A DNA stretch of 58,980 nt from a virus: positions 1-58,980 of the IMG/VR virus record IMGVR_UViG_3300020470_000900. The stretch is one strand, 5' to 3'. The notes beneath the pieces are model-generated. The model searched no databases. It worked only from the letters and a program-made list of their open reading frames with translations, and had not been told where the DNA came from. Each line of letters starts with the position of its first letter. Positions within the stretch are counted from its first letter, which is position 1. Below, piece by piece: positions 15,338-56,486 of the stretch. The position numbers were made by a program, and so were the translations under genes.

Positions 15338-16870
15338 TTAGAACTCGATTACGATTTTAATGTCTTCTACTTGGTCGTTTGCACGACTAATTGCTCTCCT
15401 ATTATCTATGTAAACAACCTGACCGCTATTTGACTTAATCTCTGGTTTAGCATATCCAGAGTTAAATCTCATACCCAAGTCATACTCGGTGTTATTAATA
15501 GTTCTAGAAGAAGAGTTTGGAACTGCAGGGAAGTTTACATCTGGTTGACCAGCTGCACCTGAAGTTGCTCCACTTATAACGTTAGAACCATCAAACTCAT
15601 TCTGTGTACCAGTAACTTCTGGGAAGATACCATCAATTTCATTTTGATAATACTTCAAGACTTTTGTTGTGGCATTCCAGGATATAACCCTTCCACGTGC
15701 AGTAACGTTTGTACCACCAACAACTCTAGTTTGAGTGATAATTTCGTCAGGGACATAGTTACCTTGGAATGTTGGATTGAATATAACTGCTTTAGTAGCA
15801 GAAACTGTAAGATCTGATATCAACTCAGTTGTACCAAACTTAAGAGGATTGGATATTAAACCAATTCTTCTGTAATCGTTATCAACTGGGAAGTCTCCAG
15901 CACCTTCATCATATGATAGTTTAGCGTTAATCATAACTCGGAATGCACCAAGTTCGATAACAGTGTCACTACCATGACCACCTGGAGGTGGGATGATTAC
16001 ATCGACCTGACCACCTTGACCAGTACCAATACCAGTAATATTGTCAACAGAAATTTTACCAAAGGTATATCCAGTACCACCACTAGTAACAGTAGCAGAA
16101 ATAATTTTACCTCCATCGACAACAATAGAAACCCTACCGCCAGTACCGTCACCGTTAATAGAAACATTATCATAAGTACCGTTGTTGTAACCTGTACCTG
16201 CAGCATTAATAACTACAGTGTCAACTTCACCTTCAACAGCATTTGTTTTAACTGCATCATTGGTGAACACAGGCATATAGTCGTTCGAGAAGAACTTAAG
16301 AACGGATGCAACAGGGATAGTATACATATACTTCCATCTGTAACCATCACCAGTCGTAACAATAGAGGTAGATGTACCAGTAGGTTCAACCGTAGAAGGT
16401 TTTCCGTTAGGATCACTAGGAGAAGTACCGTTATAGATGCACTTATAAACTTGATACTGAGAGTTTACAACGTAAAAGTCAGAGTCATATAGTTTAGTAG
16501 CACCAGAAGCAGCAGTCTTACTTGGAGAATAGTCATGTCTATACATGTCATAGGTGAAACCTAATCCACCAGTAGTTTGTTCTGGGGAAACCCAGTCGAT
16601 TCTACGAGAAACTTGTACAGTATCAGAAGCGAGGACTCTCTTCAACGATATCATGTCATCGTAAGAACCCGAAAATTCGGAGAATGAATCAACTGCCTGT
16701 GGAGGCGAGTTTTCATTATCCCAAGATTGTGGTCTACCTATAAAAAGGTATACACGATCTCGTGTCGCACCTGCATCCGTATCGGATTGCGTTGGGTCTG
16801 GACCTTCGAGAGCCTTAATAAATTTTAATGCTGAAAAAATCCTAAATTGATCAGTTAATAGAGCTGCCAT
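15338..16870 (-). CDS. 8: Baseplate wedge protein gp8 homologue with repeat insertion
   Basis: A 510-residue protein. Its start (LLTDQFRIFSALKFIKALEG, then YLFIGRPQSWDNENSPPQ) parallels the T4 gp8 N-terminus (KFRTEKMLNFY, FGRSEPW). The DGYRWKYMYTIPVASV segment matches gp8 GDGYVWEYLYEIP, and the C-terminus VYIDNRRAISRANDQ matches gp8 YMENRPPIIMAMDQ. T4 gp8 has 334 residues. The excess is largely an insertion of GTGY/GGTGY repeats at about residues 210-295 (genome about 16240-15990) and a GATSGA unit near the end. It is expected to dimerise in the baseplate wedge with gp7, gp6 and gp10. The late promoter at 16897 lies 27 bases upstream. Confidence 0.88.
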   Translation of the reverse strand: MAALLTDQFRIFSALKFIKALEGPDPTQSDTDAGATRDRVYLFIGRPQSWDNENSPPQAVDSFSEFSGSYDDMISLKRVLASDTVQVSRRIDWVSPEQTTGGLGFTYDMYRHDYSPSKTAASGATKLYDSDFYVVNSQYQVYKCIYNGTSPSDPNGKPSTVEPTGTSTSIVTTGDGYRWKYMYTIPVASVLKFFSNDYMPVFTNDAVKTNAVEGEVDTVVINAAGTGYNNGTYDNVSINGDGTGGRVSIVVDGGKIISATVTSGGTGYTFGKISVDNITGIGTGQGGQVDVIIPPPGGHGSDTVIELGAFRVMINAKLSYDEGAGDFPVDNDYRRIGLISNPLKFGTTELISDLTVSATKAVIFNPTFQGNYVPDEIITQTRVVGGTNVTARGRVISWNATTKVLKYYQNEIDGIFPEVTGTQNEFDGSNVISGATSGAAGQPDVNFPAVPNSSSRTINNTEYDLGMRFNSGYAKPEIKSNSGQVVYIDNRRAISRANDQVEDIKIVIEF

Positions 16871-16905: not shown

Positions 16906-19900
16906 CTATTGTGAGCGAACTATAGTTGAATACTCGATTCGTTTAATTCTATATCTCGCTCCACCATTACCAACTGCATCTTCACCACCTAATATTGCTT
17001 GAGCAGCCGCTCCAGTTCCAGTGGTATCACCAGTAGCAGGGGTAAATGTTACTGTGGGATGAAGGGCATAAAACCCATCAACACTTTGTACTATTCCAAA
17101 TCCACCACTAGTAAGAGTAATATCTTTTACTTGGTCACCAGCAGTTGTCATATTAACAGTACCTGTCGCTTGAATATCACCAATATCCTCAACAACTAAT
17201 GTTGGTGGTGCAGTATAGTTAGTTCCTGGATTCTGAATTACAAAATCTACTACAGTTGTATTATATGAAAATTCATATAAGTAACCATTTACGCCCTTAT
17301 TAACATCACCAGTATTATATGGAGTTATATCTTTAAGTTGTAAAACACTATTTACAGGATCCCAAGAAACAACTGTTCCTCTTACACCTGAAACAGAACC
17401 AGTTACAATTTCATTAACACCAAATGATAAATTATTTGAAAGAGTAGGATCCAAGAACAAGTTAACAATCGACTCATGTTCTACACCATCAGTTAATGTT
17501 CCTGCAGCACTAATGGTTGCATATTTAAATGGAATAGCAGCATCTTTAATCTGGTCACCAACTTGGAATAAAGTTGTATTTTGTCCACCAAGAGTTTCTT
17601 CAATACCATATAATGAAAAATACATACCACCATCAAGACTAATTTGATTTTCAAAAGTTGTGCCAGTATTAACAAGATCTATAATACCATCTCCAGCACC
17701 ATCCAATTCATCATCATCTTCAAACTTCTTATCTATCATAAGACCAATAGGAACTGTTAATGTAACAATACCTGGTCCTCCAAGATCATCTAACAGAACA
17801 TGAGGGTTAAATCCACCAGGAGCACTATTAGCAACACCAGCATCAAACTGAACAATAGCATCTTCAGTTGATGGTCTACCACCATCAATAAATGCTAATT
17901 CATCTACTTCAAATGTAACTAAAAGTTCTCTTGTAAATTTATTAAAGTCATAAACTTTAGCAACCTTATTACTAGCATTCTCAACTTTTCTAATAACTCT
18001 GTCACCTACATTAAATTCATATGCTGATGAACCATCAGGATTATTCTGTCCAATATCAAGAATAACTCTTTGGTCATAATTAAAGTTTACACCTCTGGTT
18101 AATCCTGAGAATTTACCAGGAGCTTTATTTGTATATGCAATTGTTTCCTTATTAAGGATAATAGTACCAGAACCAGGATATGCATCTGTAGAGTCAACAT
18201 ATATCGTTGTATCTGATGGAGCAACATCTTTAACAAGACCTGTAAGATAATTAGCACCTGAGTTATATGCCTGTCTTGCTCTAGTCTTACGTTTAAGGTT
18301 AACAAGTTTAGTGAATATAACTGAGGGTGGATTAATATATCCACTACCAGGGTCTGTAACTACTATTTCACTGATAGAACCTTGAGCAATTCTTGCTTCT
18401 GCTTTTGCTCCTATACCTCCACCACCAGTAATTAAAATATAAGGAGGTTCTTCATAGTATTCACCAGCATCAACTATAGAAATATTTTTAACTTGCCCTA
18501 ATGTGTCAACAGATGCAGCACCTTCAGCACCTTGTCCACCACCACCTTCAAAAATAAGTGTTGGAGGAGTTGCATACTCTCTACCACCATTCATTAAAGA
18601 AAGACCAGTAACTGTTTGTACTATAGGACTACCAGTACCACCACTACCTTCTCCACCTAAAATTCTTGCTGTTGCAGGACCAAAATAATTATCTCCCATT
18701 TTGGTCATCTTAACATAATCAATCTGGCCAGGATTTGCAGTACTTAAAACAATTTCACCTTCTGCTCCACCTGGAAAAACGTCTGCTGCCTGTGGAAGAG
18801 TATCTCCTTCAAATACTGGTTTACCGTAAAATCTAGGACCAATAACATATGGATAGACAGGATTACCTGAACCATCCTCTGTCATAAAGTAAGCATAGGT
18901 TCCATTTGGATATTCTGGAGTTACAGCAAATCTACCATTATACTCATCAAGAGTACCTTGATTATCCCAAATATTATCTTCAACTAGATCTCCCATTACA
19001 TAACCATCTTGGACAGTTCTTGTTCCTATTTCAGCAGATGTATAACCAAAGAAATATAATGCTAATGGTGCATCTACAGGAACGAGAAATCTTATCTCTC
19101 TAGAAGAAGCTGTATTAAATCCAGCATTATATGCAGCATACGTTACTTCAGATCCTTCTAACCAATAACTAATACCAACTCCATTATACAAATATGAGGA
19201 ATCTTGAGGAGTAGATGATACATGCCACCCATCTTCTGATGTAGATAGTAACATCTGATTATTAATCATAGATGCATCATTCTGTTGGAAGATATATGTA
19301 TTACCTCTTAAAAGATTTAAGAATGATACCTGACTACCATCAAAATTGTAAGTACCATTAGCAAGAGTTACTGCATAAGTTACAGTTGCTGGTGTAGTAA
19401 TTTGTGGTCTTGCACCTGCTATTTCAGCACCTGTTTTTAATCTATATCCACTAGTTTCTCTTTCAACTGAACCACTACTATTATATCCATAAGGACCGTA
19501 AATTGGATAACCATCATAAGACATACCTAAGATCTTAGAATGTCCATCAGCATGTCTACTATAATCTGGTGAAGCACCACCAGAATAATAATCAGTAATG
19601 TAATAATCATTAGTTGGTGTATGTGCTTCAACTGTAGGGTCTAAGATCATATAACCTTCATGACCTTCATGACCAGACATATATCTGTGATTCTTACAAT
19701 AATAGTAAATACGATTAGTCTCATCCTCATTCATTATGAATAAAGGTTCTAACTCATTTTCATAATCTGTAGATGGTGCTGCACTTGCACCTGTACTATT
19801 ATAATAAAGTGACCCACCATTCAATAAACCATCCTGTGTAGTACTGAACTGCATAGGATGATTATCTACATGATGATTTCCAGGTGAATTACTGGGGTCT

Positions 19901-21066: not shown

Positions 21067-22293
21067 TTAACCGATTACGTTGATTACGCCATTCATAGCA
21101 GCGTGTAATGTACACTGATAATAAAGAATAGCTGGAGCATCCATAGGAACAGTCCAATAAAGAACAGCAGTTCCACTACCAGTTTGACCAGCAGTATATG
21201 GGTTACCACTCAAACCTTGACTACTCTGTATTCTAAATGGGTGTGCAGATGCTTGAACAGTATTATCAAAAGCATATGTCATACCCTTCATAACAGAAAG
21301 AGTTGGATCAGCAGTTGCACTAGCAAATCCAGGTCCAGCAATCGTATAGTCAGATGAACCATTAGCATTTACTTCCCACCAAGTAATAGGACTGCGTGTA
21401 ACAACCCAATTAGTACCATTATAAAATAACGAATCTCCTTGTACTAAACCACCAACATCAGTATCAGTTAAATTAGCAAACGTAGTAGTAAGAGTTCCAG
21501 AAAAATCTACTGTTACAGTATCACCAACAACATTTGTTGTTATATTAGTTCCACCAGCAATAGTTAAAGTATCTGTTTGACTATTAGCAGTTGTAGAACC
21601 AGTATCACCAGCAACAGTAGCAAATAAGTTTACAGAACTAACTCCAGCAGCATCATCACCTGGTTTCCATTTAGCAGCAGTTGAATCCCATTTAAGAACT
21701 TGGTTATTTGTAGGAGCAACAGTAGTTGTATCAACGTCTGCTAATAAATCAACACTAGAATACTCTGTTGCTAACTTTGCTCTTACATCACCAACACCAC
21801 CTGTAGTAATATTAATGTTAACATATGGATTATCGTCACCATCTACAGTAAAGAAAAATCCACCATAAGATGCAGCAGAAGGTGCATTACCCAATGCTGG
21901 AAATTCATTTTTATATCCTACTCTCGTGGGGAAATCAAAATCTCCAGTCGCACCATCAAAAGTAGCAGTAACACCGCCAGCAGAGATAGTAACATCTCCT
22001 GTCCCATTGGGAGCGAGAGAAATGTTTCCATTACTTGAGGATATAATAGAATTTCCATTTACATCCAGTCCTGATGTTAAAGTTGTAAGATCTGACGGTA
22101 AGAAATTACTGCCATTATAGCGGAGAACTTGACCAACAGCAGGGTTTGTGACACTAAGTTGTAAATTAGTACCATTACCAATTGCGGAATATATCTCATT
22201 GAAATTGTCGTTAATCTTGTCGCCTCCACCACGGAGGGTATCCCCCGTGTTGTCATTAGCTACCGTACCAAGATTTAGTGATTGCTTAGCCAT
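21067..22293 (-). CDS. Fibre-like protein with C-terminal cupredoxin-like domain
   Basis: A 408-residue protein. The N-terminus (SLNLGTVANDNTGDTLRGGG, then DKINDNFNEIYSAIGNG) is a recurring attachment or trimerisation-type start of cyanophage fibres. The middle is a low-complexity beta-shaft (GNISLAPNGTGDVTISAGG). The last roughly 95 residues form a cupredoxin-like domain with HPFRIQ and YYQCTLHAAMNGV, giving His, Cys, His, Met in the order of plastocyanin-type proteins, although with Cys-x2-His-x2-Met spacing. The gene has its own late promoter, which overlaps the stop codon of gp7, and is followed after six bases by the 1384-residue YHYH protein that carries related domains. Role as a short fibre or baseplate appendage is inferred. 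Confidence 0.75.
   Translation of the reverse strand: MAKQSLNLGTVANDNTGDTLRGGGDKINDNFNEIYSAIGNGTNLQLSVTNPAVGQVLRYNGSNFLPSDLTTLTSGLDVNGNSIISSSNGNISLAPNGTGDVTISAGGVTATFDGATGDFDFPTRVGYKNEFPALGNAPSAASYGGFFFTVDGDDNPYVNINITTGGVGDVRAKLATEYSSVDLLADVDTTTVAPTNNQVLKWDSTAAKWKPGDDAAGVSSVNLFATVAGDTGSTTANSQTDTLTIAGGTNITTNVVGDTVTVDFSGTLTTTFANLTDTDVGGLVQGDSLFYNGTNWVVTRSPITWWEVNANGSSDYTIAGPGFASATADPTLSVMKGMTYAFDNTVQASAHPFRIQSSQGLSGNPYTAGQTGSGTAVLYWTVPMDAPAILYYQCTLHAAMNGVINVIG
21070..21360 (-). other. Cupredoxin-like domain at fibre C-terminus
   Basis: Key residues are His in SAHPFRIQ, then Cys, His and Met in YYQCTLHAAMNG. The MDAPAILYYQC strand resembles cupredoxin strand G leading into the ligand loop. No signal peptide is present, so it would be displayed on the virion rather than exported. 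Confidence 0.6.
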
Positions 22294-25300: not shown

Positions 25301-28300
25301 TTAAACCAAGTATATGGATAACCAACTCCACCTACCTTAACATTTGCTACAACACCAGAACGTGTTCCTTCAAGTCTGTCATTTGCTTCCCAAGGAGCAC
25401 CATACCATTTTCCAACAACTAAGAAACTACCTTCACTCTTATATTCAAGAACTACAGCAGATCCACCACCAGCTCTTTGACTGAATATCATCTCACCGAC
25501 TTCAAAAGCACCAGTAACATTTTCAATTTCAATGTTATGTGCTACTCCTGTATCAGTAATATCAGTTGTAATTAAATCATGTACTAAATTAGTAACAATG
25601 GTATTGAGCCAATCATCATATTGCCAAACAGAAGCACCGAACTGCTGTGATACAAGAGTTGTAATCTCTTCTTTATAGTAACTCTGGTTGAAGAGTAAAT
25701 TCTTAGCAGCACCTCTCATTGCCAACTTACCAGGAGCAAGTATATTAAGAGCAATATCAACCAATTCCTTGAATCTAGTAACAACTGGACTCATATCAAT
25801 TGGTGATAATAAATCTCTATACGCTTCTATAGTAGTGTAGTTAAAGTTATATGCTGGAGGAACTTCATTACTATCTTTAGTATACAATCTATTAAGAATT
25901 GCATGCTCACCTAACCACTTCATCTGCTCAATAGCATATGTTGTTGCTAATAACTCATCTTCGATGTAGTTAATTTGCATTGTAGTGGATAGATAATTTT
26001 CCATTGCAGCAATAGTGCTATTATTTCCACCTGTTTGCAAGTCAGAGATAATACCCAACATAATAAGAGATATGTCACGTTGACATGTTTGAACGCCACC
26101 TGGTTCTGGATATAAGAATGCATTATAGTAAGGACCACCTTCTGCTAATTGGAATTGGAATTCATTGGATACTAATGTTGTTATTTCATCAGCAATTGCT
26201 TTTCTATTGAAGTATAATCTATCAGCAGATATTGCAAAGTCACTATTTGTAGGAGCAATGATATCATTAGCAGTTGCAACTAACTCATCAATCGCTTCCT
26301 GAACATCAATACAATCACCAGGAGCAGTTATACCATTAGCAGTTGCACTAACGAATGTATGTGCAGCAGTATTACTAATAGGATAATCTGGTTCCTTATT
26401 AACGTTAACAGTTACTGTGGTTGCTGTTACTGCAAGGATCTTAAGATTTCTACCGCTTGCATAATCCTTACCATCAGGAGTACCAGCAACACCAGTAGGT
26501 CGTGGATATGTACCATTCGCAGTACCAGTTCCAGGGTCACAAGAGAATGTTAATGATCCATCTGCTATCTGAATATATCTTCCAACAATAAGTGAATGAG
26601 AACCAATTGTGATTTCCAAATTACCTGAAGTTGGACTATACACTGCTCCAGTTGCAGTAAATTGAGTTGCTGTTGATTGTGTGATACCCCAATCACCAAC
26701 TATAATTTTATCAGTATTATCATAAGTTAAATTACCAGTTATCGCTTGCTTCATGTAATGTGCAAGACGTAAATGTGCATATGCAGATTGGAATAACTGT
26801 AAGCGAATGTGTAAGATTACATCATTAGCACCAAGATATCTCCTAGCAACGTTAACTGTATTAAAGTTACCACCTTGTCTAAGGTCTTTAATAAACTCAG
26901 TAAGAATTAATGCTAAGTCAGTCTTACATTGTAAAGTACCATTACCACTACCATCAGCATTTCTAGGCATATCCAAAAGTAAGTCTGGATATAGATTAAG
27001 CATATCGTAAGATGCTTTATCTACAATAGGACCAGCATTTGCTTCTATTAAATCTGCAGCATCTTGGAATCTGTACTTGCTATCAGCACCAATTTGATTT
27101 GCATAGATTATATCATCAGTAGAATTGTGTAATGAAACTGGGAATGTTTCTTCCAAATATGCATATACACGTCCACCAAGGAATTCGTTATCTGGATCTG
27201 AAGATAGTTTTGATACAGAACCAAGATGATCTATAGGTGATGGACTATTAGCATCTTCTAAAGTATCTGTAACTATATCAATTAAATTTTCTATAGTTGC
27301 TTGAACATCTACACAATCACCTACACTATAATCCATAACAGTAACACAATCAGTTTCTGCAGAAACAAATGAATGCTTAGTTAAGAGTTTCTTAACTGCA
27401 CCAGGGTCAGCACTTGAGAATGTGTGAGCACTTGCTGGTTGATAAGAAACATTATTATTACTTGCATTACCTGTAAATGTATGTGCATAATCACCACCAG
27501 TTACAACTGCTGCTCTCTTAATACAGTTAGTTGCATATGTTTTACCAGCTACAAATGTATGTGTAGTAACGTTAGTAGAAGGTGTTACATCTAAAACTTG
27601 TACTTGGAAAGTATATGCTGTTAATCCTGTAGATAGAACCTTCAACCACTTACCACTTGCAGGGTCAGTTGCTCTTGGGTATCTGTGCTCAGTAGCATTA
27701 CCATCCTTAGTACATGTAAATGTTAATGAATTATCATCAAACTTAACATACTCACCTGCATCCATATTATGAACAACATTAGTTGTAACAGTCATTATTC
27801 CTGTCCAACCACTATATGTTATTCCAGTTGGTGTGTACTTATCATATACTGTATAGAAAGCATGTTCTGTGGTATTGCTAATAGCACCATTAGATATGTT
27901 AACAGTAACAGAAGTTGAAGTTGTAGCAGTAATAGGATGAGATTTGTTATAACCCCAGTCACTTGTACGAGGATAGTAGTGAATAGTACTACCACCATCT
28001 TGAGCACAAATAAATCCAAATGATTGTTTAGCAATCTTAATACCATCACCTACACTAAGTTCATGAGCACCAATATCAATAGTCAACATTCCAGTAGTAG
28101 GATCATATGCTGTTGTTGAACCAGCTGCCAATGAAGGATTGTATCCTTTGATAGGAGACTTACCAACATTAACCTTAATCATACCATTCTGTGCTCTAAC
28201 ACCATTAGTTGCAGCACTTAAGAAAGCATGAGTAGAAGTGTCTGAAGATATTCCTACATTAACTTCAAATGTATCATTAGTCTTATTTGAAATAGCTAAC

Positions 28301-31300
28301 CATCTTCCACTTACAGGATCAGTTGGTCTTGGATACTTATGCTCTGTTGTATATCCATCTAGATTACATTTGAATGTTAATGACTCATCAACAAGTTGAA
28401 TGTAATCTCCATTGTTAAGTCCATGAGCAGCCAATGTGATTACCATCAATCCACTAGCAGGAGTGAATACTGCATTAGAAGCAGTACCTGAATTATAATA
28501 TACGTCTGTTACAGGAATTGATTTCTCAGAACCATATGGATCTGTTGCACGTGGATATGTCTTAGTAGCAGTATTGCCATCCATATCACATGTGAACTGT
28601 AAAGTGTTATTCTGTATAACAATACTAGAACCTTTACGCATTCCATGTTGACCAATTGTTAAGGTCATATCACCTGTTGATGCATCGTAAGTAGCAGCAG
28701 ATGGTGTAAATGTCTGATTAGTTCCAGGTGTACCTACATTAACTGTTATTGAAGTAGCGTCTGTAGCAATAACTGGCAATTCTTTACCAGAAGTACGAAC
28801 ATCATGTCCAGGTCTAGGATAAGATTTAATGGACTGGTTATTGTCCATTGTACATGTAAATCTAATAGACTCATCTTCAATGATTACGAAATCATCAGTT
28901 GTAATATCATGAGCAAGAAGGTCTATCTGTAAATTACCATTACTTGTATCGTATGTTGCAGAAGTAGGATTATATGGTTTATAATTTTTATTAAATGAAG
29001 TAGGACCAACATTAACAGTAAATGAGTTTGTATCAAACTTAGTAATTGGTAATACTTGCTTAGATGAAGGATCTGTAGTACGTGGATACTTATGATTTGA
29101 ACCCCTATCATCATATTCACATGTCATGGTTAATCCATGATCATCAATAGCAATTGCTCTACCTTTCTTCTTAAAGCATCCAGCCTTAGCACCTGTAAGA
29201 GTATGTGTATAAGCACCACCAGTTCTAATTACAGCACGTGTTAATCCATTTGTTACAGCAGATTGGAATTGGTGAGTAGTGGTATTAGAAGAAGTACCGA
29301 CATTAACAACAAAAGTATCTTTAGTAACACTAGATACTTCCAAATATGTACCGCTAGCTGGGTCAGAAGAACGTGGATATGTATGATCAGTCTGATAGTT
29401 ATCTTGTAAACAACGGAATGTTATTGAACCATCGTCAAATTTAACCATGTCTCCATTTTCAAATCCATGATTAGGAACAGTCACGGTCATTGAACCAGTT
29501 CCAGGAGTAAATGCAGCAGCAGTTACTGTGAATTTCTCTCCACCAGGAACAAATTCGTGTGTATAATCACCACCAACAGTAAATGCTTTATCTACTGTTA
29601 ATCCACCCTTCCAAACGTGAGTGTATTGTCCACCACACTTAATAGCATCTGCACTAGCAGATTGGAATACGTGAGTTGAAGTATTTGAAGATATACCAAC
29701 ATCAACTGTAATTACACCAGTTGGTCTCTTCATGCTGTTTGCAACAAAGTTTACAAAGGTGTGAGTTGATGTATCACTAGACTTACCAATAAAGACATCA
29801 AATGTATCTGTCTGAACATTATCTAATGGTAACCACTCAAAGTAAGATGGGTCTGTACGTCTTGGATATGAATGGTTTGTAGCATCACCGTCTTTAGCAC
29901 AAGTGAATGTTACTGCATTCTCATCTAATCTAACCTTATCATTTGCTTTAACCAATCCATTAGCAACTGCTGATACCCATACGTGAGTTGTATTATTGGA
30001 AATAGGTTGATCACCGAATGCATTTCCAACAGTCATACTGAAATCGTTAGCACTTGTGCGAAGAATTGGGAAGAATCTTCCACTAGCAAAATCACTAGGT
30101 CTTGGATATGAATGGTTAGTAGAATTACCATCTTCAGCACAAGTAAAGACTAAAGAGTTATCAGCAATTTTAACCATATCACCAGTTACAAATCCATGAT
30201 TAGCAGATACTACGAATAGTTCACCTGTTGCTGGATTAAATGTTGTACCACTTTCTGCAGTCTTTGTAGTTGGAGCAGATAATCCATGACCAGCTAGAGT
30301 TATGGTCATCATACCTGTGGTTGGATTATAATCTGCATCAGTTGGAGTATGAGATGTAGTCTTAACTTCCTGAACATAAGTTGCAGTATTGTATGCATAG
30401 TCAGCACCACCAGGAGCATTAGAACCAGATGCACGAGGATATGTCTTATCTGTTGTCTGACCATCAAGATCGCAACGGAATGTTAATGAATCTTGCTCGA
30501 TGTATACAGAATCACCAGCTCTTGTAATACCATTTTGAACACAACTTACGAAGTTATGAGTGTAATCACCACCAGTAATTACAGCACCCGATAAAGATGA
30601 ATGATAGTTATGAGTACCAGCATGACTAATTGCGGTATTTGGTGATTCATTAACGTTTACCGTAATAGTTGTTGCATCCTTAGCAATAATATTCAATGCA
30701 GTATTGTATGCATAGTCTTGATTATCACTTGTATTAGCACCATATGATCTTGGATATGACTTCTGAGTAGAGAATCCATCTCCACCATAATCACAAACAA
30801 ATGTAATTGAATTATCTTTTAATCTTATACTAGTTCCAACTGAAAGACTATGTGTACCAATGGTAAGTACTAAGTCTCCAGATACAGGATCGTAAGTAGC
30901 ATTAGAAACATCAAAGTCTAATTGTGGTGAAGTTCCTACGTTAACATCAAATGTATTATCAGTAACGTTAGAAATTAACATCCACTCCCCAGATTTAGGG
31001 TCAGTAGATCTTGGATAAGTATGCTCACTACCGTGTTGGTCTAATGAACATGTTAATGATATTGCATTATCAGCAACCTTAATCTTATCTCCTATCATGA
31101 ATCCATGATTAGGAATTGTAATTGTCATTACACCAGTTGATGCAATATAATTTACATCAGTTGCTGTATGAGTGGTAGCATCCTTAATCCAATGATTACC
31201 AACAGTCAAGTCCATAATACCTGTCTCAGGTACATAGGTAGCAGCAGAAGGTGTGTATGCTGAGAACTTACTCTTACCAACATTAACAGTAAAGGAATTA

Positions 31301-34300
31301 TTATGAACCTTAACACCGTTAGATGTTCCAGAAACGAATGTATGTGTATAAGCACCAAATAGAGTTCTACCAACAAATACATCAAATGTAGTGTTAGTTG
31401 AAGCTTCTACAACACTCCATCCTCTTCTAAACACTGGGTCAGTCTTACGAGGATATGCATGGTTTGTAGCATTTCCATCTTTAGTACAACTAAAGGTAAT
31501 AGCACCTTCTTCAAATCTAACTAACTCACCAGCAACTTTCATGCAAGGATTAGCGGTTACACCAACACATGTATGCTCACTAAGATCTTGAGACTTACCA
31601 ATAAACAAATCAAATGTATTTTCAGTTCTATTCTGTGCAGGTAACCATTGATCTCTTGCAGGGTCACCTGGACGTGGGTAGAAGTGGTCTGTTGTCTCAT
31701 CATCTAATCCACAACGGAATATAAATGCACCATCATTAAGTCTAACAAGGTTACCATTGTATACCTGATGAGCAGATGATGTAATAGTTAACATTCCAGT
31801 AGCAGGGTCATAAGCAGCACCAGTACAATTTCTAGTACTTGGTGGATTTAATAATGAACCGATAGTAACGGTCATCATACCTGTTAATGGGTTATATGAT
31901 GCATCAGTTGCAGTCTTATCAATTTCAGAAATATCAATAACGTCAACAGCAGTACCACGAGCAGGGTCAGTTAATCTTGGATATGCGTGGTCGGTTGCTT
32001 GACCGTCCATATTACATGAGAAGAGGAATGCTCCATCTCTAAGTCTAATGCTATCACCAACCATTAAATTAGGATGTCCACCTAATCCAGGAGAACCAGG
32101 AGCAGAAGAAGTGATTGTTAATGCACCAGTTACAGGAGTATAGCTTGCACTAGAAACATCATATGCAATATTATGTGTCTTACCAACATCTAAAGTAATT
32201 GTATTATCCTTATGAATAATACCATTAGGATCTGCAGACTTAAATGTATGCAATGAAAGGTCAGTAGATATACCAACATTTACATCAAATGTATTAGTAG
32301 TTACATTAACAATCTTATGCAATCTACCGCTAGCTGGATCTGTAGAACGTGGATATCTATGCTGAGTTATGTTGTTGTCCAACAAGCACTCAAATGTAAG
32401 TGATTCATCAGCAATACGAACTTTATCACCATAAGCAAATCCATGATTAAACACCGTTATTGTTAATAAACCTGACTCAGGTGTATATGATGCAGAATTT
32501 GCAGTATGAGTAGTTCCTTCATATAGAATAGGTACACTATCCTGATAGATGAAATCATTTTCTCTTGGATATTTCTTAACAGACTGCAATCCATCCATAG
32601 TACATCTGAATGGAAGACTACCTGTAGCAACCTTAATATTTGTACCAGCTCTCAATCTATGCTCACCAATAGTCATCTTAAGAAGACCTGTTGAACCACT
32701 GTATGTTGCAGCAGTAGGATTGAATATTACGTCAGGTGTTTTACCAACATCAACTTGGAAAGTTGTTGAGTCAACAATAACAACATCTAACCAACCTTGA
32801 CTTGCATGGTCAGAAGCTCTTGGATACTTATGCTCAGACCTATTCTGATCCATAGTACAAGTAAACGTTAGAGACTCATCTTCAATTTGAAGTTTAGAAC
32901 CTGCTGTAAGATTATGAGCACTAGCAGTTGTACATGTAAGCATACCAGTAACAGGGTTGTATCCACCACCATTGATTGATAATGATGTTTCACTAAACAA
33001 ACCATGTGATGCTTTTAATATTTTTAATTCGCCAGTTGCAGCATTATATTCTGCTCCTGAAGGTGTAAATTTAGTTGCAGCATTACCACTAGATTCTGTA
33101 ATACTAGTATCAAATTTTTGCTTATGTCCATGATGACCTTGAACATCCCAAGCATCATTGGTTATGATATATCTTAAAATTTGATTTAATTTACCATATG
33201 TCCAAACAGTTTCTACAATTTCATTTTCAACGTTGAGTAATTTGACATTGTTTACATCTTCTCTATCAACATAGTATGATGCAGCAGTCCAAATCTTTTC
33301 ATTACTACCATTACGTAAATCGGATGCAATAGACCTACAAATATCTTTAACATCATCTTGGCAATTTACACTACCATTAATGACAGTGAAATCTGGGAAT
33401 TTCTGTTCTAGTAGATATACTGCCTCTTCAGCAATGAAGTCTAAGTTAGATTCAATCAACGTAGCAGCATTGTAATACCTATTAGTATTTCCAACAAAAC
33501 CTCTAGAAACTGCTCTACCAACATTAACTGTAATTGTAGTACCAGTTACTGAATCAATTGTTAATGCTACTCCATGTGCAGGGTCAGTTGGTCTTGGATA
33601 TCTATGCTCAGTTGCATGATTATCCTTATCACAAGTGAATGGTAACTTATCAGTACCAATAGTTACAGTATTAGATGTTGTAAAACTATGAGATCCAATA
33701 GTCAATACTAAAACACCAGTCTCACCATTATAAGTTGCGTCAGTAACATCCTTTACAGTTCCATCGTTAAATGTAAGAGCAGCATTTGAAGTACCAGCTA
33801 CAAATGTATGATTACCAACATAACGAACGGTAGAAATTATAGCATCGTTATTGAAATATTCTCCCTTTGTGAATGACTCAGAACCAGACCAATCTTGTAC
33901 CCATTGCTGACCATCTTTACCATCAAAATGAAGTAACATCTTAGTATTATCATCACCTTGGAATATCCCAGCTAAAGGTGTAAATGCACCAGAATATCTG
34001 ATATTGTCAGAGATTCTTACCTCATCAATATGACCAATAAACCCAGTTGAGAAAGCATAACCAACACCAATAAAGAGTGGTTTAGCAACGTATGTTGTAG
34101 CATCAGTTCCTGTACCAACCTCAACACCATCAATATACAACTTACCAGATGTACCTGTTCTAGTGTAAGCAACATGAGCCCATGTATCAGCAGTTAGAGA
34201 TGTTCCAACAGAAGTTACAAGATCTGCATTATTAACATTCCAACGAACTTGACCACTTTCAACATATACTCTCAATGCAACTTCATTAGCACTTGAAACT

Positions 34301-37300
34301 CTTGTATCAAAAATATCAATAGTTCCACTTAATGAAGAAGAATCAGGACGTACATAAAATTCAAAAGTAAAGTCACCAGTACCAAAAGCAATTTCAGAAG
34401 TTGTTTGACACCAGATATAATCTGTTGTTCCAGCAGTTAATTCTAATGAACCAGCACCATACTTCTTCTGTGCTGTATCAATCTGAGCATTACCAGCAAA
34501 AGTAAAATCAAAATAGTCTTCACCATTAGACTTAGTTCTACCAATCTTACCAAGATATACTGTATTACGTGCTTGGTTATATCCAATAACTTCAGCCTTA
34601 GTATCTCTAGATCTTATAACTTGACCAGAACTAAAGAATCCATTTCCTTCTTTATCATAGAAGGACATTTTTCTAACCTTACCTTCTTCACCAGTTACAA
34701 ATTCATTGGTATTATTACCATATTCAATCTTATAATTACGAATATTCTCATTAAGTTGTAATGTTCCTGTTAAATTATTAAATGGAACAATATAATTGTT
34801 AATCTGTTCATTAGCTGGGAAGTTACCATTATAAGGAGTTAGATTATCAGTAGCATCAACAATACTTACTGCAGATGATGCAATGTCATCTAAGACAACA
34901 TTTGGATAAGTCTGAGATGTAATTCTGTTGAATAATAATCCAAAGAATGAAGAACCAGGAGAGATGTCAACCTGACCAATAAATTCTTGAGTTACAGGAT
35001 CTTGATAAGCAGATGTTGAAGTAATTCTTGCTATAACACCAGACTGTGCTCCATAGATAACATCATTCAACTGAATATCAAATAATCCAGGTGTTGATGT
35101 ATATGTACCTGCAGTCTTACTTAAAGTTAATTTATCAGTAACCTCAATTTTAGTACTATAAAGTGGAGTATCATCTTGCTGATTCTGTGCAGTTGTACCA
35201 AGAACATTTCTTACAACTGTAAGTGATGTTGATTCTGCATTATCTACAGTGCTTATAAGAGTAAAGATTTCAGATCCTACCTGATAATTAACATTTGCAT
35301 CAAATGTTCCTATAGGTACTGGTTGGTCAGTATCTGCAGTTGGGTCAACAACTTCAAATACAGTTGTAGAAGGACCAATAGAATACCTTAATTTAGCAAT
35401 AGGCATCTCTTGACCAGTTTCTAAGTTAACTGCTTCAACCTTTGCAGTATTACCTTCTAGGTTTGTAATATTTTCACCAAAAGTATATAATCCTATACTT
35501 CCAACTGGAGTTACAGATGCTAAGTTTCCAGCAAATCCTGTTGCTACAACGTTACATAGTTCACCAAGTACAAAACTACCATCAGTTATATAACCAGTAA
35601 CTACATTACCAACTACTTTCAATACAGTAAATCTAGCATCAGAAGAACTACCCTTAATCTCATTACCAAGACCAGGATAAATTCCACTAGGATTATTGAA
35701 TATCATTTCATATCCCTGAATAGGCTCAATAGTAACAGAAGCATATTTAACACTTGCTGGTGGTTTTGGTGGTTCAGTGAATACTATAGAATCCTGTTGG
35801 ATTGTAAATGCTGTCTCTGGGTTCTGTACAACACCATTCAAGACAACCATTAACTGATTTGCGTTAGCAACAACAGTACCACCATTAACTGTTAATGGGA
35901 ATGAAGTCTTAATACCATCAAACTGGTCTGATATATCATCAACTCTCTGTACAACAGAAGTTAGAATGTTCTCAGAAGATGTCAATCTCTTCTGTCTGAA
36001 TAGTACTTCTGTATTATTAAACTCAGTATAAATTGGATCTACAAGAGCAAAGTTTTGAATATTTGGAACAATTGCTTCTTGAGCAAGTTCTACAGACTTA
36101 GTAAGTTCAAAGAAAGTATCTTTATTAGGAATCTCTCCATACTCATTCAAGTTCAACTCACCAAACACCTTAAACGATGCAGGGTGAACGTTTCTGATTA
36201 GAATTTCTTTCCACTCACTAATAGAAACAGCAGACTTAACAGCATAAGAGAAGTCTTGATAGTAGTAAGAGTCTTGAATCTTCTGAATAATTTCAGATGG
36301 CTTACCAACATCATCAATGAATTGACCAGTAGTTTTAGTGATAGAACCAATATCTAGAACACCACGAGCAAACTTAAGGTCACTAATAGTACCAGAAGAC
36401 TTAGAAATAACACCAGTTATTTGTTCACCTTCTGAAAATACACCATCATAATCAACAATCTTAAGAATTCTAGGTCCAATCTGCCAACCAGAGTTAGTTG
36501 AAACATATCCTTGTGCTGTTGCTGTCTCTAAAGAATCACCTTGATAAACAAGTTCACCTTCAAGGAAGGTAGAAGTAATAACATTAGCAGTAGCTTCACC
36601 ACCGAATGATTCAGTTAAGATACTCTGACGACCATCACCAGCGTTAACAAATGATAGTGCATCACCCAATTCTGCGTTTTGAGGAGTAATAGCAATCTTT
36701 AATTGATCATCTTCTAGAGAGTTTGCACTACCAGAAATTGCATAATAAGTAGTATTTGGATTAAGACGACCTGTTGCACCAGCAGATAGAGGATAATCAG
36801 CACCATCTCCAGTATCTGTTACAGCAACACTAATTTCAGCACCATTAGTAATACCATGTGGATAAGCAAACTGTAATAAACCTAAGTCGAGGTTTACAAC
36901 GTAGTTGAATGAAGACCTAAGACTTACACTAGGAGTAGAAGAATATCCAGCACCTGGGTCTTTAACTTCAATAATATCCAATCTACCATTCTTAATAGTT
37001 GCTTCAGCAGTTGCTCCAGATCCACCACCACCTGTAATAACAACAGTAGGTGCTAATGAATATCCAGAACCTGGATTTGTAACAGTAATACTCTTAAGAA
37101 TACTTGTAGAAGTTAACTGAGCATTAAGTGGGAATGTAATCTCAGGACGTAAAGTATAGTCATGGGGATAATCATAACCAAAGTTATTGTTCTTAAGTTT
37201 CTTAATCTTACCAACCTTATCACCCTTAGTAAAGATAGATGCTTCAGTACCGAAAGGTGGTATAACAACTTGTAAATCTGCACCAGATCCTGTAAGACCA

Positions 37301-40300
37301 GCACCAAGAATTCCAGGAACACCTTCAACGTCAATTGAAGCACTAGTATATCCTTTACCTGGAGATGTGACAAGAACTTCTTGAATCTGACCTGGAATTG
37401 TTATACCTTCATCATCTTGCCCATCAGCAACAGTAATTTGAACAAATCCACCTTCACCATCACCAGCAATAGGTACACCATTATATGTTCCTACAGCATA
37501 TTCAGTTCCTGGTTCAACAATTTGAACTCTTTCAATCTTTCTTGTAGATGCAATACCAGTAACAATAGGTAACTTAGTATAGAAACCACCTGGATTAATA
37601 ATACGAATATCACCAATAGCACCAACTGCCTTTAATGAACTTGTAGTATATGATGTTCTTGAAATATCACCAATACCTTCTGGTTCATTTAATAATGGGA
37701 ATTTAAATACATCAGCACCACGAGTAATTGTTTGACCAGAAGTACTGCTAATTGTAAATGTACCAGTATAAGGTGAATCTGTTACATCAAGATAACTGTC
37801 AGAAATTACAGGAGAATCTTCACCAGTTCTAGAAGGATCGAAATAGTAAGAGATATTAGTAACTATATCATTATCAACTTTCAACTTAACTGATGGATTT
37901 GGTTCTCCTTGACCAGTTAAACCAGGAGTTCCAATTCTTTCAATAGAGTTGAATGAATATTCCAACTTATAAAGATTATCCTTAGCAAAAGATAAATTAC
38001 CACCAACAAGTGTAGAATGACTTAAATCAAAGATATACTGGTGTCCATAGTACATCTTTAGAGTTGGAGACTTAACAAATATACCAACACTAGCAGCATT
38101 AGTTGCAGGAGCAGTTATAGCAGTTTGTGGTAACTTGTAAGTAAATTCAAGTGGACTTACAACAGTATCAACAGCAAATGCACCATCATACTCATCATAA
38201 ACAAGACCACTATCTGTTTGTGATGGATTACCATCAACATAAACAATTTCACCTTCAGATAAGTAATGACTTGTTCCTGTGATTACATAGACCTCATCGC
38301 TATTATTAACAGCAGTTATTTGAAGTATTCTTTCTAGATTAGAAATCAATGTAATCTTAGTAACACCTGTTAAATTTGTTATCTGACATGTATTGTAATT
38401 AGCATTGAAAGATATATCGTTAGATGTAAGTGAAACTACAGATCCAACAATAAACGATGAACTACCACCAATTTCATCAATTCTAACTGAATAGTCACCT
38501 ACATTAAACGGTTTAAATCTAGCAAAGTCATCTAAGTTATTAGTACCACCAATATTAGCAGGAGCATCATAAGTGGACATATCAATGTCAAATGTTCCAG
38601 GAGTTGTATTGTTTACCTGTGCGAAGGTATATGCCTTCATTTCATTAACATCATTTGGAACAGGACCAACTATTCCATAAGTATCTTGTTCATCAAATTG
38701 CTCACTAACTAAAATACCAGTGTTTAAATCATTACTCCAAGGATTATTCTGAACAGCAACATAAATTTTTCTGTTAGGTATATCAGATTTAATGATATAT
38801 CCACTATTAATGAAGTTACCATTAGAAAGATTATTAAGTCTTAACTTAGCACCAGTAGTGAATATGAACGGTTGATTTATAGTTAACTCTTGAATATTAT
38901 CAATTTTAACTGTATTAGTAACCTTAAAGAAATACCTATCCTTAACTACAGCAGATACTTGTAATTTTTGAGAACCTGGAGAAGGAACAGTTGCTGTTCT
39001 AGAACTCCAAATATCATTAGTATATGTTAATGTCTCCGTACCAGGAGTCATTGTTATAGTAGCATCATCAAAGTCTAAAGTTTGTAGACCTGCATCACCC
39101 AATGCAAAATCAGCTTCACCTATTGTCATTGAAGATCCAGTAACAGGAGTTACAGCAGTTCTGACAAATCCTAATTGAGTATTAGTTTGTACACCTTTAT
39201 CACCCAATCTAGTAGCATCAGCATTCTTATCTACTTTTAAATTCCATGCATTATGGTCAATATAATCATACTTGGTTAAATTATTAGTAAACCAAGCAGT
39301 GTCTGTCCAAGCAAAGTCCAATGCAAATGATGCAACAGGAGGTAAACTTGAAATATCAGAAGGTACAGTAACAGGAACTGCTCTATTTCTTAATCTAATA
39401 TTATCAATAAAGAACTGACCTTGATAATTCTGATTGAAATCTGTAGCACCAGTACCAAAACCAATCTGGTTACCAAAGTATAGATCTTTAGTAGCAAATG
39501 AAGTATTTGATAATGTACCACTTATTACTTCTATACCATTAACATATGCTTTAAATACATTACCTTCTTTCCTTACAGCAATGGTTTGCCAACTATTGTC
39601 AGCATACATTGTTGTTTGTGTGGATGATTGTCCAGAACCATTAATTAACTGAGTTGTTTGGTTGGTAATAACCATCTGCAACTCACCAGAGGAATTATCA
39701 TATCCTAACCATAGTCCACCAGTAGCATCTCTAGCACCACCAATACCCATTATAGTTTGAACATTTTGTGATAAAGTCTGAGATTGTGATCCAGATTTGT
39801 ATATAAAGAACTCTAAAGTCCAATCATTTGCTAATGTTGTACCTAAATCAGTTCCAGCAACCTTAAGATAAGAATTTTCCCATGTAGAACTAGACCCAGC
39901 TGGTTGATAACCATAGATCTTTGCCATATTATCATCATAAGTTATAGCATTACTTGCTCCAACTGAAGTTAAAGTATAGTTGCCAGTCAGATCTGTTTGC
40001 TCATTAGCAGCAAAATCGAAGATAAACTCATTTCTATTCCATTGAGTTTGACCAGAAAGGTAAACATCACCAGAATTATCAGTATTAACTGAATGAACAG
40101 TTATACCTTCAATACGGTTTTGATTAAATTCATTAGTTGTATGATTCTTAATAATACCATTATATCCAATCTTAACTGAATCTACGGTTTTAACACCAGT
40201 TGTACTATTGTCTCTACTAAATGCAACATTTAAATCTCCAAATATATCGATAGAACTCCTATCTGCCATAGTGATATCTCTACCAGGAGCAACATAACGA

Positions 40301-43300
40301 TAATTCCAAATTATACTACCAGTTCTACTAACTTTACAAACCCAGAAACTATCTTTCTGTGTAGGATCAGACTTAAGTCTTAATGAAGCAGAAATATAAC
40401 ACTCATTAAATTCGTCAAAGACAAGACTACCATCAACTAATGAATATATGGATGTACTGTACTCTTTAATAAAGTCTATATTAATTGCACTTGTAGTTAA
40501 AGTTGCTTTACCAAATGCAAGATTAACATCAGTAGTAGATTGATTTAACCCCACTTCCATTATGAAGTATAATTCAGTAGCTCCCTCAGTGGTCGTTATG
40601 ACCTTCATATCTACAATCTTTTCAGATTTACTAGTAGATACAAGCTTTCTCTTAATAGCAAAATTACCAGTACTGTCAATAGATGCTAAAAATGCATCAT
40701 ATGGGTTACTGGAATTTGTATTAGTATAACCACCAATAATGAAACGAGTATCACTCCATTTTTGAATTGCAGATACATGGTCAGCACGAGTAGCACCAGA
40801 GATACCAGCATATCCTTTCTGGAATTGTAATCCAGCACTTAATCCATTTTCTGCCTGAGTATACTTAGCAAGTATAACATCTGGATTATATGCGTTAAGT
40901 AGATTGGAATTTGGCTTATTATTACCAACAACCCAAACATCAAGACCATCTACATAAAGTTTTTGGAACTCTGTATAGTACTGTCCATCAGTACTTTCTA
41001 AAGTATTCTCCCACTCTTTAACACCTGTAGCAGATAATTTAGCAACAAAACCTACTGTATTTCCAACAGCATCCTTTGTTTTACCACAAATAAAGATCTC
41101 TTTATTATCACTAACGTAAGTATCATTAATTTTAACATAATTCTGATTTTCAAGTTTAGAAATATAATAATCTGCTTTCTTAAAGACCTGTGGATGAGAT
41201 AATATAACACGAGGATTGGATGTATATCCAGAACCAGAATTTAAAATATTAACTTGATCAATAGCACCAACAGTTGATACAACTGCTTCTAATTTTCCAG
41301 AAGTACCATCACCATCAATTGTAATAGTTGGTGGAATGTCTGTATTGTATCCAGAACCTCTTTGGTCAATAATAATCTCTTCTATACCTTTATATTGACG
41401 AACTACAAACGTTTTGTTTGTATTCTGCATTATAGGAGTATAATCTATATAAACAACATCACCAGCAATTAGATTATGGGGATCTGCTGTCTGTAAGACA
41501 CCATAATTAGCACCACTAATATTCTCGAAATCATATGAAGCAACTGATTCACCCTTGATTTTTGAAATACGAGCAGATACACCAGCTCCATCAGTATCGG
41601 TATTATCAAATATTAATCTATCATCTACCTGATAGTTCTTACCTGTGTTCTCAACAGTAAATCCAGTAACAGAAGCATCTTCAAATTTAGTTGTTGTTTC
41701 AACTTCAATATCAACTTTAGAGTCAAATTTAACTTTAGGGAAGTAATCAAATAACTGTAAAGGTGACTCCTCAAACATTTGATCGGGGTCAGCAGTCTCT
41801 TCTGGACCTATAATTCCATCTCTATTCTCATCCTCCACTTCAAACAACAAGATCTCGCCATCTTCAGTTGTTAAAGCAGCAGTAGAAGCATTAGGAACCC
41901 TTTCAACATCAATATCAACATTCTCATAAGGGTCTCTATAACGTACAACTCCAGTTGGTATATTTTGCTGAATTGCATTTGCACTAAGGTTCCATTCATC
42001 AACAACAGAGTTGAAACTTGGTCCTATAACATATGGGAAAAGTGGACTACCTGCATCAGTAGCATCAATAGTAACGAAATAAGCATAAGCACCATCAGGG
42101 AAATCAGGAGTCTTACAGAAACGACCATTATACTGGTCTAAATCACCCAATCCAAAACTATACTCATAGTCTTCTACAAAATTACCAGCAGGCTCTTCTG
42201 TTAATAATGGACCAGCAGTTCTATTTGGATTTGGATTAGTAGTATCATCATAAACCAATTCATCCTTTAATTTGTAAGAAGTTCTAAGTCTTACAATGGC
42301 AGAACTTTGGTCAGTAGGATCATTATATCCATAAGGACCATAAATTGGATTACCATCAAATGCCCAACCGATAATTGGAGAGTGAGTTAACTGCTCTTCT
42401 TGTTCGAGAATATTTCCTGTGCCAATTTCTTCATAAAGGTTATCTCCAAGAATATATCTCATCCTTTGAGGATTGGATAGGTGAGCATACTCACCACCAT
42501 ACTCATTATTGTAACCAGTAAATACAGAACCTTTAGCAGTATCAAACTGTGAAGTTGCTTGAAGGTTATAATTCCATTGGAATACATTTGCAGTAAAGGT
42601 AGCATTTTGTCCAACAGAAGTCAGATTAATGATTGTTGTACCTTGAACGTAGTTAATACCTTTATTAATGATCTCAATATTAGTAACCCTACCAGCATTT
42701 TCACCATCAGTATCAATAGTAGCACGAGCAACAGCACCAAATCCTTCACCTTGAACAGTTACTTCAGGTGCAGTAGTATATCCAGATCCAGCAGAAATGA
42801 TAGCAATAGATATAATTCTACCATCATTAACAATTGCTTGTGCAACAGCACCTTTACCAGAACTTAATGTTACTGTTGGACTTGAAGTATACTCAACACC
42901 ACCATTAGTAATACCAATAGACTGAATAGGTCCACGAACAGATGCAGTACCAGCAGCACCATTTCCACCACCACCAACAATAGTAATAAGTGGTTGTGAA
43001 GTATACCCAGAACCGCCTGAGTTGATTAGAATACGTGAAACTGACCCTTTAGTGATAATAGCAGTTGCAGCAGCACCAGAACCGCCTCCTCCAACGATTG
43101 ACACCAATGGAGATGAAGTATATCCAGAACCGCCATTAGTTACAGTAATCTCACTAAGAGAACCGTTAACTACAACACTTGCAGTTGCACCTTCTCCTCC
43201 ACCACCTGTCATAGTAATTGCAGGAGGAGATGCAGCATCATATCCAGATCCAGCATTAGTAATGCTAACATCGGTTACAGCACCAAAGGTTTTTGCTTCA

Positions 43301-56075: not shown

Positions 56076-56078
56076 ATC

Positions 56079-56294: not shown

Positions 56295-56486
56295 TTTTTA
56301 TACTGGGAAATTTTTTTGTAATTTTGTATATATCACTTGCGTTTGGGAACCTTTGTAGGTTAGGGTAGTTTGCTTTTTTAATATAACGGCCGCATCAAAG
56401 ACCGAGAACCCCCATCACAACTGCGATTTGGGCGGAGTTCTTTACATTTAGTACGCTAATTAACTGTCCTGAGTGTTACATAAGCA
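56295..56486. other. Intergenic region with a possible structured hairpin
   Basis: No gene was found between the terminator and the 71-residue gene. On the minus strand GAACTCC (56434-56440) can pair with GGGGGTTC (56406-56413) around an inner segment capable of CAA/TTG pairing. A TATAAA box lies next to the start at 56294. Whether this is an RNA element, an attenuator or chance is undecided. Confidence 0.3.

Follow-up and report, generated by a model that had tools for sequence, protein, structure and literature searches.

The closest described relatives of the protein examined here are the T4-GC969 or phrog_701 proteins of marine T4-like cyanophages, which include SSM1_102 (T4-GC969) of phage S-SM1, ORF_101 of S-TIM4 and HOU57_gp047 of S-P4. 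In purified S-SM1 virions 41 proteins were detected, T4-GC969 among them (PMC3037559; this and the other articles cited below are used from excerpts of their texts), and the giant-protein family is therefore virion material. The phycobiliproteins and related bilin-binding globins (PF00502; the BBAGs of PMC10151467) are a second point of comparison. In these biliproteins the CXRD motif holds the bilin by a bond from its cysteine and by hydrogen bonds from its two remaining residues (PMC10151467). The third is phrog_1276, a family in which a YPR-containing module is already catalogued with no function, fold or role given.

The stretch analysed, hereafter the window, is a viral contig of 58,980 bases (IMG/VR record IMGVR_UViG_3300020470_000900). 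By PHROGs annotation of its open reading frames (ORFs) it contains the baseplate gene cluster of a T4-like cyanophage, in which a giant ORF lies. The giant protein has the same position between gp6 and gp9, the same collinear N-terminal part and the same two domain types as the T4-GC969 / phrog_701 proteins, but these are shorter and carry 0–9 modules compared to 20 in the window. The region of interest is built from two repeated kinds of domain, 20 YPR barrels and three domains of the bilin-binding-globin family (Table 1). We consider it likely that this region forms the middle portion, variable in length, of a virion protein and is composed of YPR barrels and phycobiliprotein-family domains that may take up a bilin. 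The new element is the phycobiliprotein-family domains, with a conserved putative bilin site, in a cyanophage virion protein beside the barrels. No report of a phycobiliprotein-like domain in a virion was found among the titles and abstract openings listed from the open-access literature, and for the structural proteins of pelagimyophages and cyanomyophages the excerpts of PMC7029224 list other domains, not this one.

Helical domains related to phycobiliproteins

Three related helical domains were found, between modules 1 and 2 (domain A), between modules 19 and 20 (domain B) and after module 20 (domain C). An initial annotation of the window, which described the modules, did not mention these domains, and domain C lies just beyond the region that it delimited. 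The first hint of their relationship was a weak match to the Pfam Phycobilisome family (E 0.079). A profile built from phage sequences alone (alignment A3; 94 of 114 helical domains, no biliprotein included) was compared with all PDB sequences and gave 161 matches at E ≤10. The best 60 of these were all phycobiliproteins or close relatives, with a best E of 2.7e-6, and in the alignment the phage C-x-R-D fell on the bilin-attachment Cys. Of the 94 members 27 matched PF00502 at E ≤1, and 2 matched the next family. At E ≤0.1 PF00502 was matched in 13 of 15 cyanophage genomes, within ORFs of 3,482–7,041 residues, and in 2 of 14 control genomes (one control being a cyanobacterium). The reverse comparison, in which a profile of 20 cyanobacterial biliproteins (20 of 22 ORFs, the doubtful L206 and L209 being left out) was run against 4,957 phage ORFs, gave seven matches at i-E ≤0.1, all seven in the helical domain, and none to reversed decoys. 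Profile-profile alignment using hhalign gave 95.1% over 58 columns.

The structure of domain A predicted with AF2 (pLDDT 91.1, pTM 0.84) was a globin fold with biliprotein topology. In a Foldseek search the best 50 of 286 rows were all biliproteins or their derivatives, with a best E of 0.03 and a probability of 1.00. The 50 rows listed by VIA were likewise all biliproteins or derivatives, superposing 107–122 residues at 2.1–2.7 Å with Z between 12.2 and 11.0; the best row covered 115 residues at 2.2 Å. The entries 8u0f and 6fzn, which occur among the structural rows, are presumably derived from biliproteins. Several observations reduce the force of these comparisons. The Foldseek E-values for domain A were all >0.001, and a VIA Z under about 13 can reflect an arrangement common in helical models. 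The structural model covers domain A alone, domains B and C being assigned by family profile. Against PF00502 the window domains scored 12.1–13.4 bits, below the curated cut-off of 22.2 bits; domain A matched at 33325–33501 with E 0.0055, and the cut-off was passed by one of 15 relatives (ACG-2014b, 22.8 bits). The claim made for the helical domains is consequently one of homology and fold, not a curated-family call, and since helical models can reach such Z by chance its weight rests on the agreement of sequence and structure on one superfamily.

Convergence on a short helical motif would account for a best sequence match that spans only about 58 of 126 profile positions, for reverse matches as weak as i-E 0.0032 to 0.061, and for the middling Z that many helical models give. 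It is very unlikely, as a single superfamily is indicated by the best 60 profile hits, by all 100 structural rows listed and by the seven reverse hits, the profile alignments share one Cys register, and no reversed decoy appeared at that threshold. Homology of the helical domains to the phycobiliprotein globin family, with the same fold, is held with high confidence. The phage domain shares with the phycobiliproteins the predicted globin fold, the bilin-site Cys with Asp at +3, and an Asn corresponding to residue 47 of phycoerythrin alpha that is 96% conserved in the phage domains. It differs from them in being embedded in a virion protein, in the Arg of CxRD, which is often Asp or Thr, and in domain A leaving no room for the X/Y helices. 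Most structural alignments of domain A begin at chain residue 25–28 of the biliproteins, and 13 residues separate barrel 1, which ends at residue 4385, from the profile hit of domain A, which starts at residue 4399. As modelled, domain A is without the antenna-building N-terminal X/Y helices, and because these are absent it would not be a light-harvesting subunit. In S-TIM4 four YPR barrels lie inside a helical domain, between the first helices (helix B) and the Cys helix.

The putative bilin site and bilin genes

Conservation of the site was counted in 199 of 262 distinct domain rows, those with a coverage of at least 75%. The Cys was kept in 177 of the 199, and all 177 have Asp at +3, compared with 6 of the 22 domains that lack the Cys; after thinning of relatives the figures were 117/117 and 4/18. 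Ten of the 22 Cys-less domains form a divergent group in which the Cys column is gapped, and the coupling is therefore in part one event. Without this group Asp was present in 177/177 and 6/12, respectively (Fisher 1.6e-8). The tendency of Cys and Asp to be lost together fits a ligand pair, without proving one. The motif was CxRD in 91 of the 177 domains, CxDD in 57 and CxTD in 16, and in the window all three domains have the Cys and Asp.

A tblastn search with the S-SM1 domain gave matches in 367 of 50,697 phage records, whose names start with Synechococcus, Cyanophage, Prochlorococcus or Marine. By profile the domain was present in 17 of 18 marine cyanomyoviruses examined (14 of the 15 first examined, with S-PM2, Syn9 and P-SSM4), and was not found in the four non-cyanobacterial phages tested (T4 and the phages of Pelagibacter, Methylophilales and Ochrobactrum), nor in the freshwater cyanophages S-CRM01 and Ma-LMM01 or the podovirus P-SSP7. 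Genes for CpeT-type bilin lyases accompanied the domain in 14 of 17 records and were found in 0 of 8 records lacking it (p 1.5e-4), and among cyanobacterial myoviruses in 14/17 and 0/3, respectively (p 0.018). The panel comprised 25 hand-picked records, of which 15 were chosen by a match to the module, gp6 or the N-terminal part, and its members are not independent, S-TIM4 and P-RSM4 being nearly the same; the association is a hint, not a test. In S-PM2 (AJ630128) thirteen family matches, some partial, were located at 55549–57945 and 166195–170268. These lie in two other large ORFs of 3,340 and 3,792 residues, from which the biliprotein-fold domain is, by profile match, not confined to the gp6–gp9 protein. 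The module profile gave no YPR match in S-PM2.

Uptake of a bilin is tentatively proposed as the single most likely function of the helical domains, and it is possible, at a similar level of reserve, that at least some family members bind one. A number of observations weigh against this. The full CxRD is present in one of the three window domains (C, CQRD; A has CQDD and B CKTD), and, as noted, the Cys-Asp coupling is partly the product of a single divergent group. Bilin-reductase genes showed no association with the domain (5/17 records with it, 1/8 without, p 0.62); P-SSM2 has a bilin reductase and no domain, and the freshwater Synechococcus phage S-CRM01 also lacks the domain. The Prochlorococcus phages P-HM1 and P-SSM4 carry it, and Prochlorococcus is described as having no phycobilisomes (PMC2984593). 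The T-type lyase CpcT serves Cys-153, and CpeT probably does too, not the site considered here (PMC10452541).

The competing explanation is that the helical domains share ancestry with biliproteins but have lost the ability to bind bilin, having been co-opted as a spacer or a host-docking mimic, with Cys and Asp retained for structural reasons. This would agree with the loss of Cys in 22 of 199 domains and the common CxDD and CxTD variants, with the lack of the antenna-assembly helices at domain A, where most rows start at chain residue 25–28, and with the missing association with bilin reductases. It explains less well that Cys and Asp tend to vanish together (177/177 compared with 6/22, or 6/12 minus the gapped group), that in the phage collection the domain occurs only under cyanophage or 'Marine' names, and that CpeT genes co-occur with it. 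Such a non-binding role is given somewhat less than an even chance. The further proposal that bilin is carried by marine cyanophage virions, on the giant protein of the baseplate region, is doubtful.

The YPR barrels and their cysteine

The giant ORF contains exactly 20 YPR motifs, from nucleotide 33600 down to 26500, each preceded by a Cys 11–13 residues before the Tyr. Shuffling the composition of the giant protein 200 times gave a mean of 0.45 YPR and 0.01 Cys-YPR, which confirms the 20 modules with Cys and YPR described in the initial annotation. Of the Asp and His that it included in the module core, the Asp was borne out, at Cys+3 in 18 of 20 modules, and the His less so, H-x-YPR being present in 14, with Lys instead in five and Gly in one. 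A profile search added a partial 21st copy at residues 5446–5466, without Cys or YPR, and the 4,593-residue open frame of another locus (L017) gave 21 profile hits, so the 20 modules of the window are no record. The window modules are divergent, with a mean identity of 36% in amino acids and 52% in nucleotides over an ungapped 40-residue core, and their YPR and Cys codons differ; on this sequence evidence the array is not a recent DNA duplication. Alignment A1 contained 13 of the 20 window modules. Modules 7, 10, 12 and 14 start with a TH-type strand (module 10: THNFVSCVQNGI) instead of Y.P.TG.MTIT, and the tail of one barrel may therefore supply the first strand of the next, so that the modules would be daisy-chained.

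The structure of the module was predicted with AF2 from 107 modules, using window positions 28171–28485 as query (alignment A2; these 107 were taken from 413 candidates left after removal of redundancy from 517, the phage-record entry L010 being excluded). The model was all beta with a mean pLDDT of 95.1 and a pTM of 0.85, in agreement with the compact beta domain suggested in the initial annotation. The best VIA row was the FCCH domain of ubiquitin E1 (Z 7.4, 78 residues, 3.1 Å), and other rows included phage endosialidase barrels (Z 6.8–7.2), a phage head-to-tail protein (6.5) and barrels of V-/F-ATPases (5.2–5.8). E1_FCCH and End_beta_barrel were also the names most often matched by Pfam at E ≤1, by 19 and 12 of the 107 modules, with best E-values of 2.9e-4 and 2e-3. 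The best predicted viral structures gave TM ≥0.9 to the model, and some of these are annotated as baseplate wedge initiator or long tail fibre. Nineteen stretches of the array matched phrog_1276 (325 residues; E 3.9e-199). The module is thus a confidently predicted beta-barrel resembling those of E1-FCCH (PF16190) and the phage endosialidases (PF12195), which it matches in predicted structure at Z 6.8–7.4. This is a resemblance and not a proven membership: all fold matches had Z <8, every Foldseek E-value was >0.001, the window region scored 10.2 bits against E1_FCCH, for which the curated cut-off is 29.5, and End_beta_barrel was not listed for it in the Pfam search of the window protein. To our knowledge the F-x-C..D..H/K-x-YPR..DP loop with its near-invariant Cys is not part of either barrel family. 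The FCCH domain is named after the neighbouring catalytic cysteine of E1, and the name is uninformative on the phage Cys.

Other candidates were set aside. Cthe_2159, SNN_transmemb and DUF7243 were matched by 11, 8 and 6 of the 107 modules (best E for DUF7243 6e-4), and no listed structural rows point to them. An iota-carbonic anhydrase gave a whole-sequence E of 1.2e-4 with the module profile, with no single significant stretch, and was treated as a chance match. A sequence comparison of the window array with the PDB gave no match for the window region alone, and one module searched in a plasmid collection gave none.

The Cys was kept in 607 of 612 distinct modules, which were collected from the retrieved loci after exclusion of L001–L008, themselves parts of the window. 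The search pattern demanded F, C, D, H, YPR and DP, so the 312 modules outside it are the fairer sample; of these 307 have the Cys, 260 YPR, 126 H-x-YP and 117 K-x-YP. Counts from the scan of viral_contigs are a lower bound. The single conserved Cys of the initial annotation is therefore well supported, with Asp at +3 in 87% of module rows. In columns 30, 32 and 34 (L, F and C) the fraction of hydrophobic rows is 1.0 (rounded), and the mostly polar columns 31 and 33 lie between them, a pattern from which the YPR thiol should point into the barrel core. A coupling of Cys, Asp and His was looked for in the modules, and loop variants were found instead, the His and Lys forms differing in the composition of residues 38–41. 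Since the His is often Lys, the loop variants differ and the Cys is directed to the core, a constant Cys-Asp-His metal site is unlikely on these alignments.

Two explanations of the near-invariant Cys were considered. On balance it is likely to be a buried core residue of an ordinary barrel, without a ligand, with YPR and Asp closing the loop. The alternating columns, the confident barrel model, and a module number that varies while the flanks remain collinear all agree with this. Its weak point is the retention of Cys in 607 of 612 modules, as a buried Cys commonly tolerates Ala, Val or Ser, and such constancy suggests a chemical role. The initial annotation had favoured such a role: a metal ligand together with the adjacent Asp and His, or a partner in a disulfide or cross-link that joins one module to the next. 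The Cys is indeed conserved beyond YPR itself, and the Asp at +3 is frequent. The metal proposal is weakened by the lack of an invariant set of at least three ligands, the His being replaced in six of 20 window modules and by Lys, with a different loop composition, in the off-pattern set. A cross-link is disfavoured by the strand pattern, which places the Cys inside the barrel, and by there being one conserved Cys per module. This role is accordingly judged improbable. The view that the module has no known fold also gave way, as E1-FCCH and endosialidase barrels lead both the structural and the subthreshold Pfam matches. A profile matching a characterised fold, or a Cys buried without ligand, was what the annotation itself had named as refuting its interpretation, which by that standard is largely refuted.

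The giant protein, its locus and the proposed virion arm

Long-range homology and the gp6-X-gp9 synteny place the giant protein in T4-GC969 / phrog_701. The phrog_701 match extends over its N-terminal 4,222 residues (7425.7 bits), and identity to the proteins of S-TIM4, S-SM1 and S-SSM5 is 71–72% over about 4,080 residues. Residues 3 to about 4,100–4,300 are collinear in eleven orthologues, with an identity of 62–72% over at least 3,700 residues in nine and of 44–60% in S-ShM2 and ACG-2014d. Residues 6431–8114 are also collinear among the alignments listed in full, which include S-SM1 and S-P4; S-TIM4, P-RSM4 and ACG-2014d were outside this comparison. That the protein belongs to a phage tail, as first annotated, holds by family and synteny for a tail/baseplate protein. 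Its position at the baseplate is inferred from synteny alone, which weakens the case for a baseplate-attached arm. The name T4 gp7 was dropped, records labelling different neighbouring ORFs gp7; the name T4-GC969 is used, and relatives carry other cluster numbers too.

The window protein is the longest of those aligned, with 8,115 residues compared to 6,064–7,041 in the 11 orthologues. The number of YPR modules in these is nine in S-P4, six in S-TIM4 and P-RSM4, three in S-MbCM25 and ACG-2014d, two in S-SM1 and S-SSM5, one in ACG-2014a, ACG-2014b and S-RIM2 and none in S-ShM2. Module 20, like the insertion given in Table 1, is absent from S-SM1. More distant proteins of P-SSM2 and P-HM1 have 11 and six modules, and P-SSM4, outside the 11-orthologue alignment, has a 7,312-residue ORF with 13 module matches. 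Across these marine T4-like cyanophages the array is, as aligned, a length-variable insert in the middle of the giant virion protein. The module occurs in 266 of 50,697 phage records, with names starting with Synechococcus, Prochlorococcus, Cyanophage or Marine. In P-SSM2 (AY939844) YPR matches were also seen at 18304–18894, 228884–229138 and 215768–215944, away from the baseplate cluster, in open frames of 332, 1,329 and 617 residues. A sequence of 188,235 bases assigned to Nonlabens xiamenensis 1Q3 (NZ_RMVE01000006.1, locus L142) has YPR pattern matches and eight helical-domain hits, and both its size and what it carries point to a cyanophage genome assembled together with that of the bacterium. 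Twenty-one of 26 genome_contigs stretches are titled MAG (metagenome-assembled genome) and are probably misbinned phage contigs.

Table 1. Positions of the giant protein, its domains and its neighbours in the window
Feature	Position	Strand	Basis or remark
Giant virion structural protein, phrog_701 / T4-GC969 type, 8,115 residues	22318–46665	(-)	between gp6 and gp9
N-terminal part collinear with cyanophage orthologues	33787–46659	(-)	alignment, 11 orthologues
YPR barrel module 1	33511–33732	(-)	profile hit 1.6e-29
Phycobiliprotein-fold domain A, C-Q-D-D at residue 4435	33103–33501	(-)	AF2 and VIA Z 12.2
YPR barrel module 2	32737–32961	(-)	profile hit
Insertion relative to S-SM1, residues 4644–6430, modules 3–19	27376–32736	(-)	S-SM1: about 7 residues (4611 to 4619)
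YPR barrel module 3	32509–32703	(-)	profile hit
YPR barrel module 4	32266–32487	(-)	profile hit
YPR barrel module 5	31927–32142	(-)	profile hit
YPR barrel module 6	31591–31812	(-)	profile hit
YPR barrel module 7	31363–31557	(-)	profile hit
YPR barrel module 8	30928–31149	(-)	profile hit
YPR barrel module 9	30643–30894	(-)	profile hit
YPR barrel module 10	30346–30561	(-)	profile hit
Incomplete module (21st profile hit), Cys and YPR absent	30268–30330	(-)	i-E 0.00094
YPR barrel module 11	30019–30240	(-)	profile hit
YPR barrel module 12	29779–29997	(-)	profile hit
YPR barrel module 13	29290–29511	(-)	profile hit
YPR barrel module 14	28999–29208	(-)	profile hit
YPR barrel module 15	28729–28953	(-)	profile hit
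YPR barrel module 16	28489–28689	(-)	profile hit
YPR barrel module 17	28246–28467	(-)	core of structure-prediction stretch 28171–28485
YPR barrel module 18	27892–28107	(-)	profile hit
YPR barrel module 19	27592–27816	(-)	profile hit
Phycobiliprotein-fold domain B, C-K-T-D at residue 6580	26686–27096	(-)	family profile i-E 4.7e-25
YPR barrel module 20	26395–26640	(-)	profile hit
Phycobiliprotein-fold domain C, C-Q-R-D at residue 6861	25843–26259	(-)	family profile i-E 1.4e-26
gp6 baseplate wedge, upstream neighbour	46671–48701	(-)	phrog_219; 72.8% identity to Synechococcus phage S-SSM5 gp6
gp9 wedge / tail-fibre connector, downstream neighbour	21067–22293	(-)	phrog_677
Wedge protein in gp8 place	15338–16870		

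The order and sizes of gp6, the giant ORF, gp9, a 1,384-residue ORF, gp8 and a 2,392-residue ORF are as in S-TIM4, where the counterpart of the last is annotated VrlC, and the cluster also encodes a PAAR protein and one further wedge protein. A 2,201-residue ORF (999–7604, minus strand) lies between the 2,392-residue ORF, at the VrlC position of S-TIM4, and a head-tail adaptor. Two ORFs at 49292–49906 and 50634–52196 (minus strand), inside the baseplate cluster between gp6 and the PAAR and wedge genes, match 2OG-Fe(II) oxygenases, and P-SSM2 likewise has such a match beside gp25. Elsewhere in the giant protein (P0001) residues 1360–1536 (42058–42588) match a YHYH domain (E 2.1e-29) and residues 4087–4220 (34006–34407) LamG-like domains (E 6.9e-28), and many GSGY-type repeats are visible in its translation.

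In the mechanism proposed, the barrels would be exchangeable units of an arm attached to the baseplate, serving as spacers or for adhesion, each with its near-invariant Cys directed to the barrel core. The helical domains may, tentatively, load a host- or phage-made bilin on their conserved Cys during assembly, and the virion arm would thereby be a biliprotein. The bilin could act as a folding cofactor, photo-protectant or sensor, or hold the loop where barrels insert.

The tail arm would grow by insertion of one barrel type in varying number between collinear flanks, and the finding offers a reading for some of the large unannotated portion of cyanophage tail proteins, S-PM2 alone having 13 matches, some partial. 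In the excerpts cited, the role of phage pcyA and pebS is called a mystery and that of cpeT unresolved (PMC3037559), and the benefit of bilin genes to Prochlorococcus phages is called unclear (PMC2984593). A phycobiliprotein-fold domain with an attachment Cys in a virion protein family is a concrete candidate substrate for the bilin enzymes. If bilin uptake is true, pcyA/pebS and cpeT, with ho1 feeding them, would have the tail protein of the phage itself, and not the host antenna, as at least one of their targets, and the bilin could be a folding cofactor, light shield or light sensor of the infecting particle.

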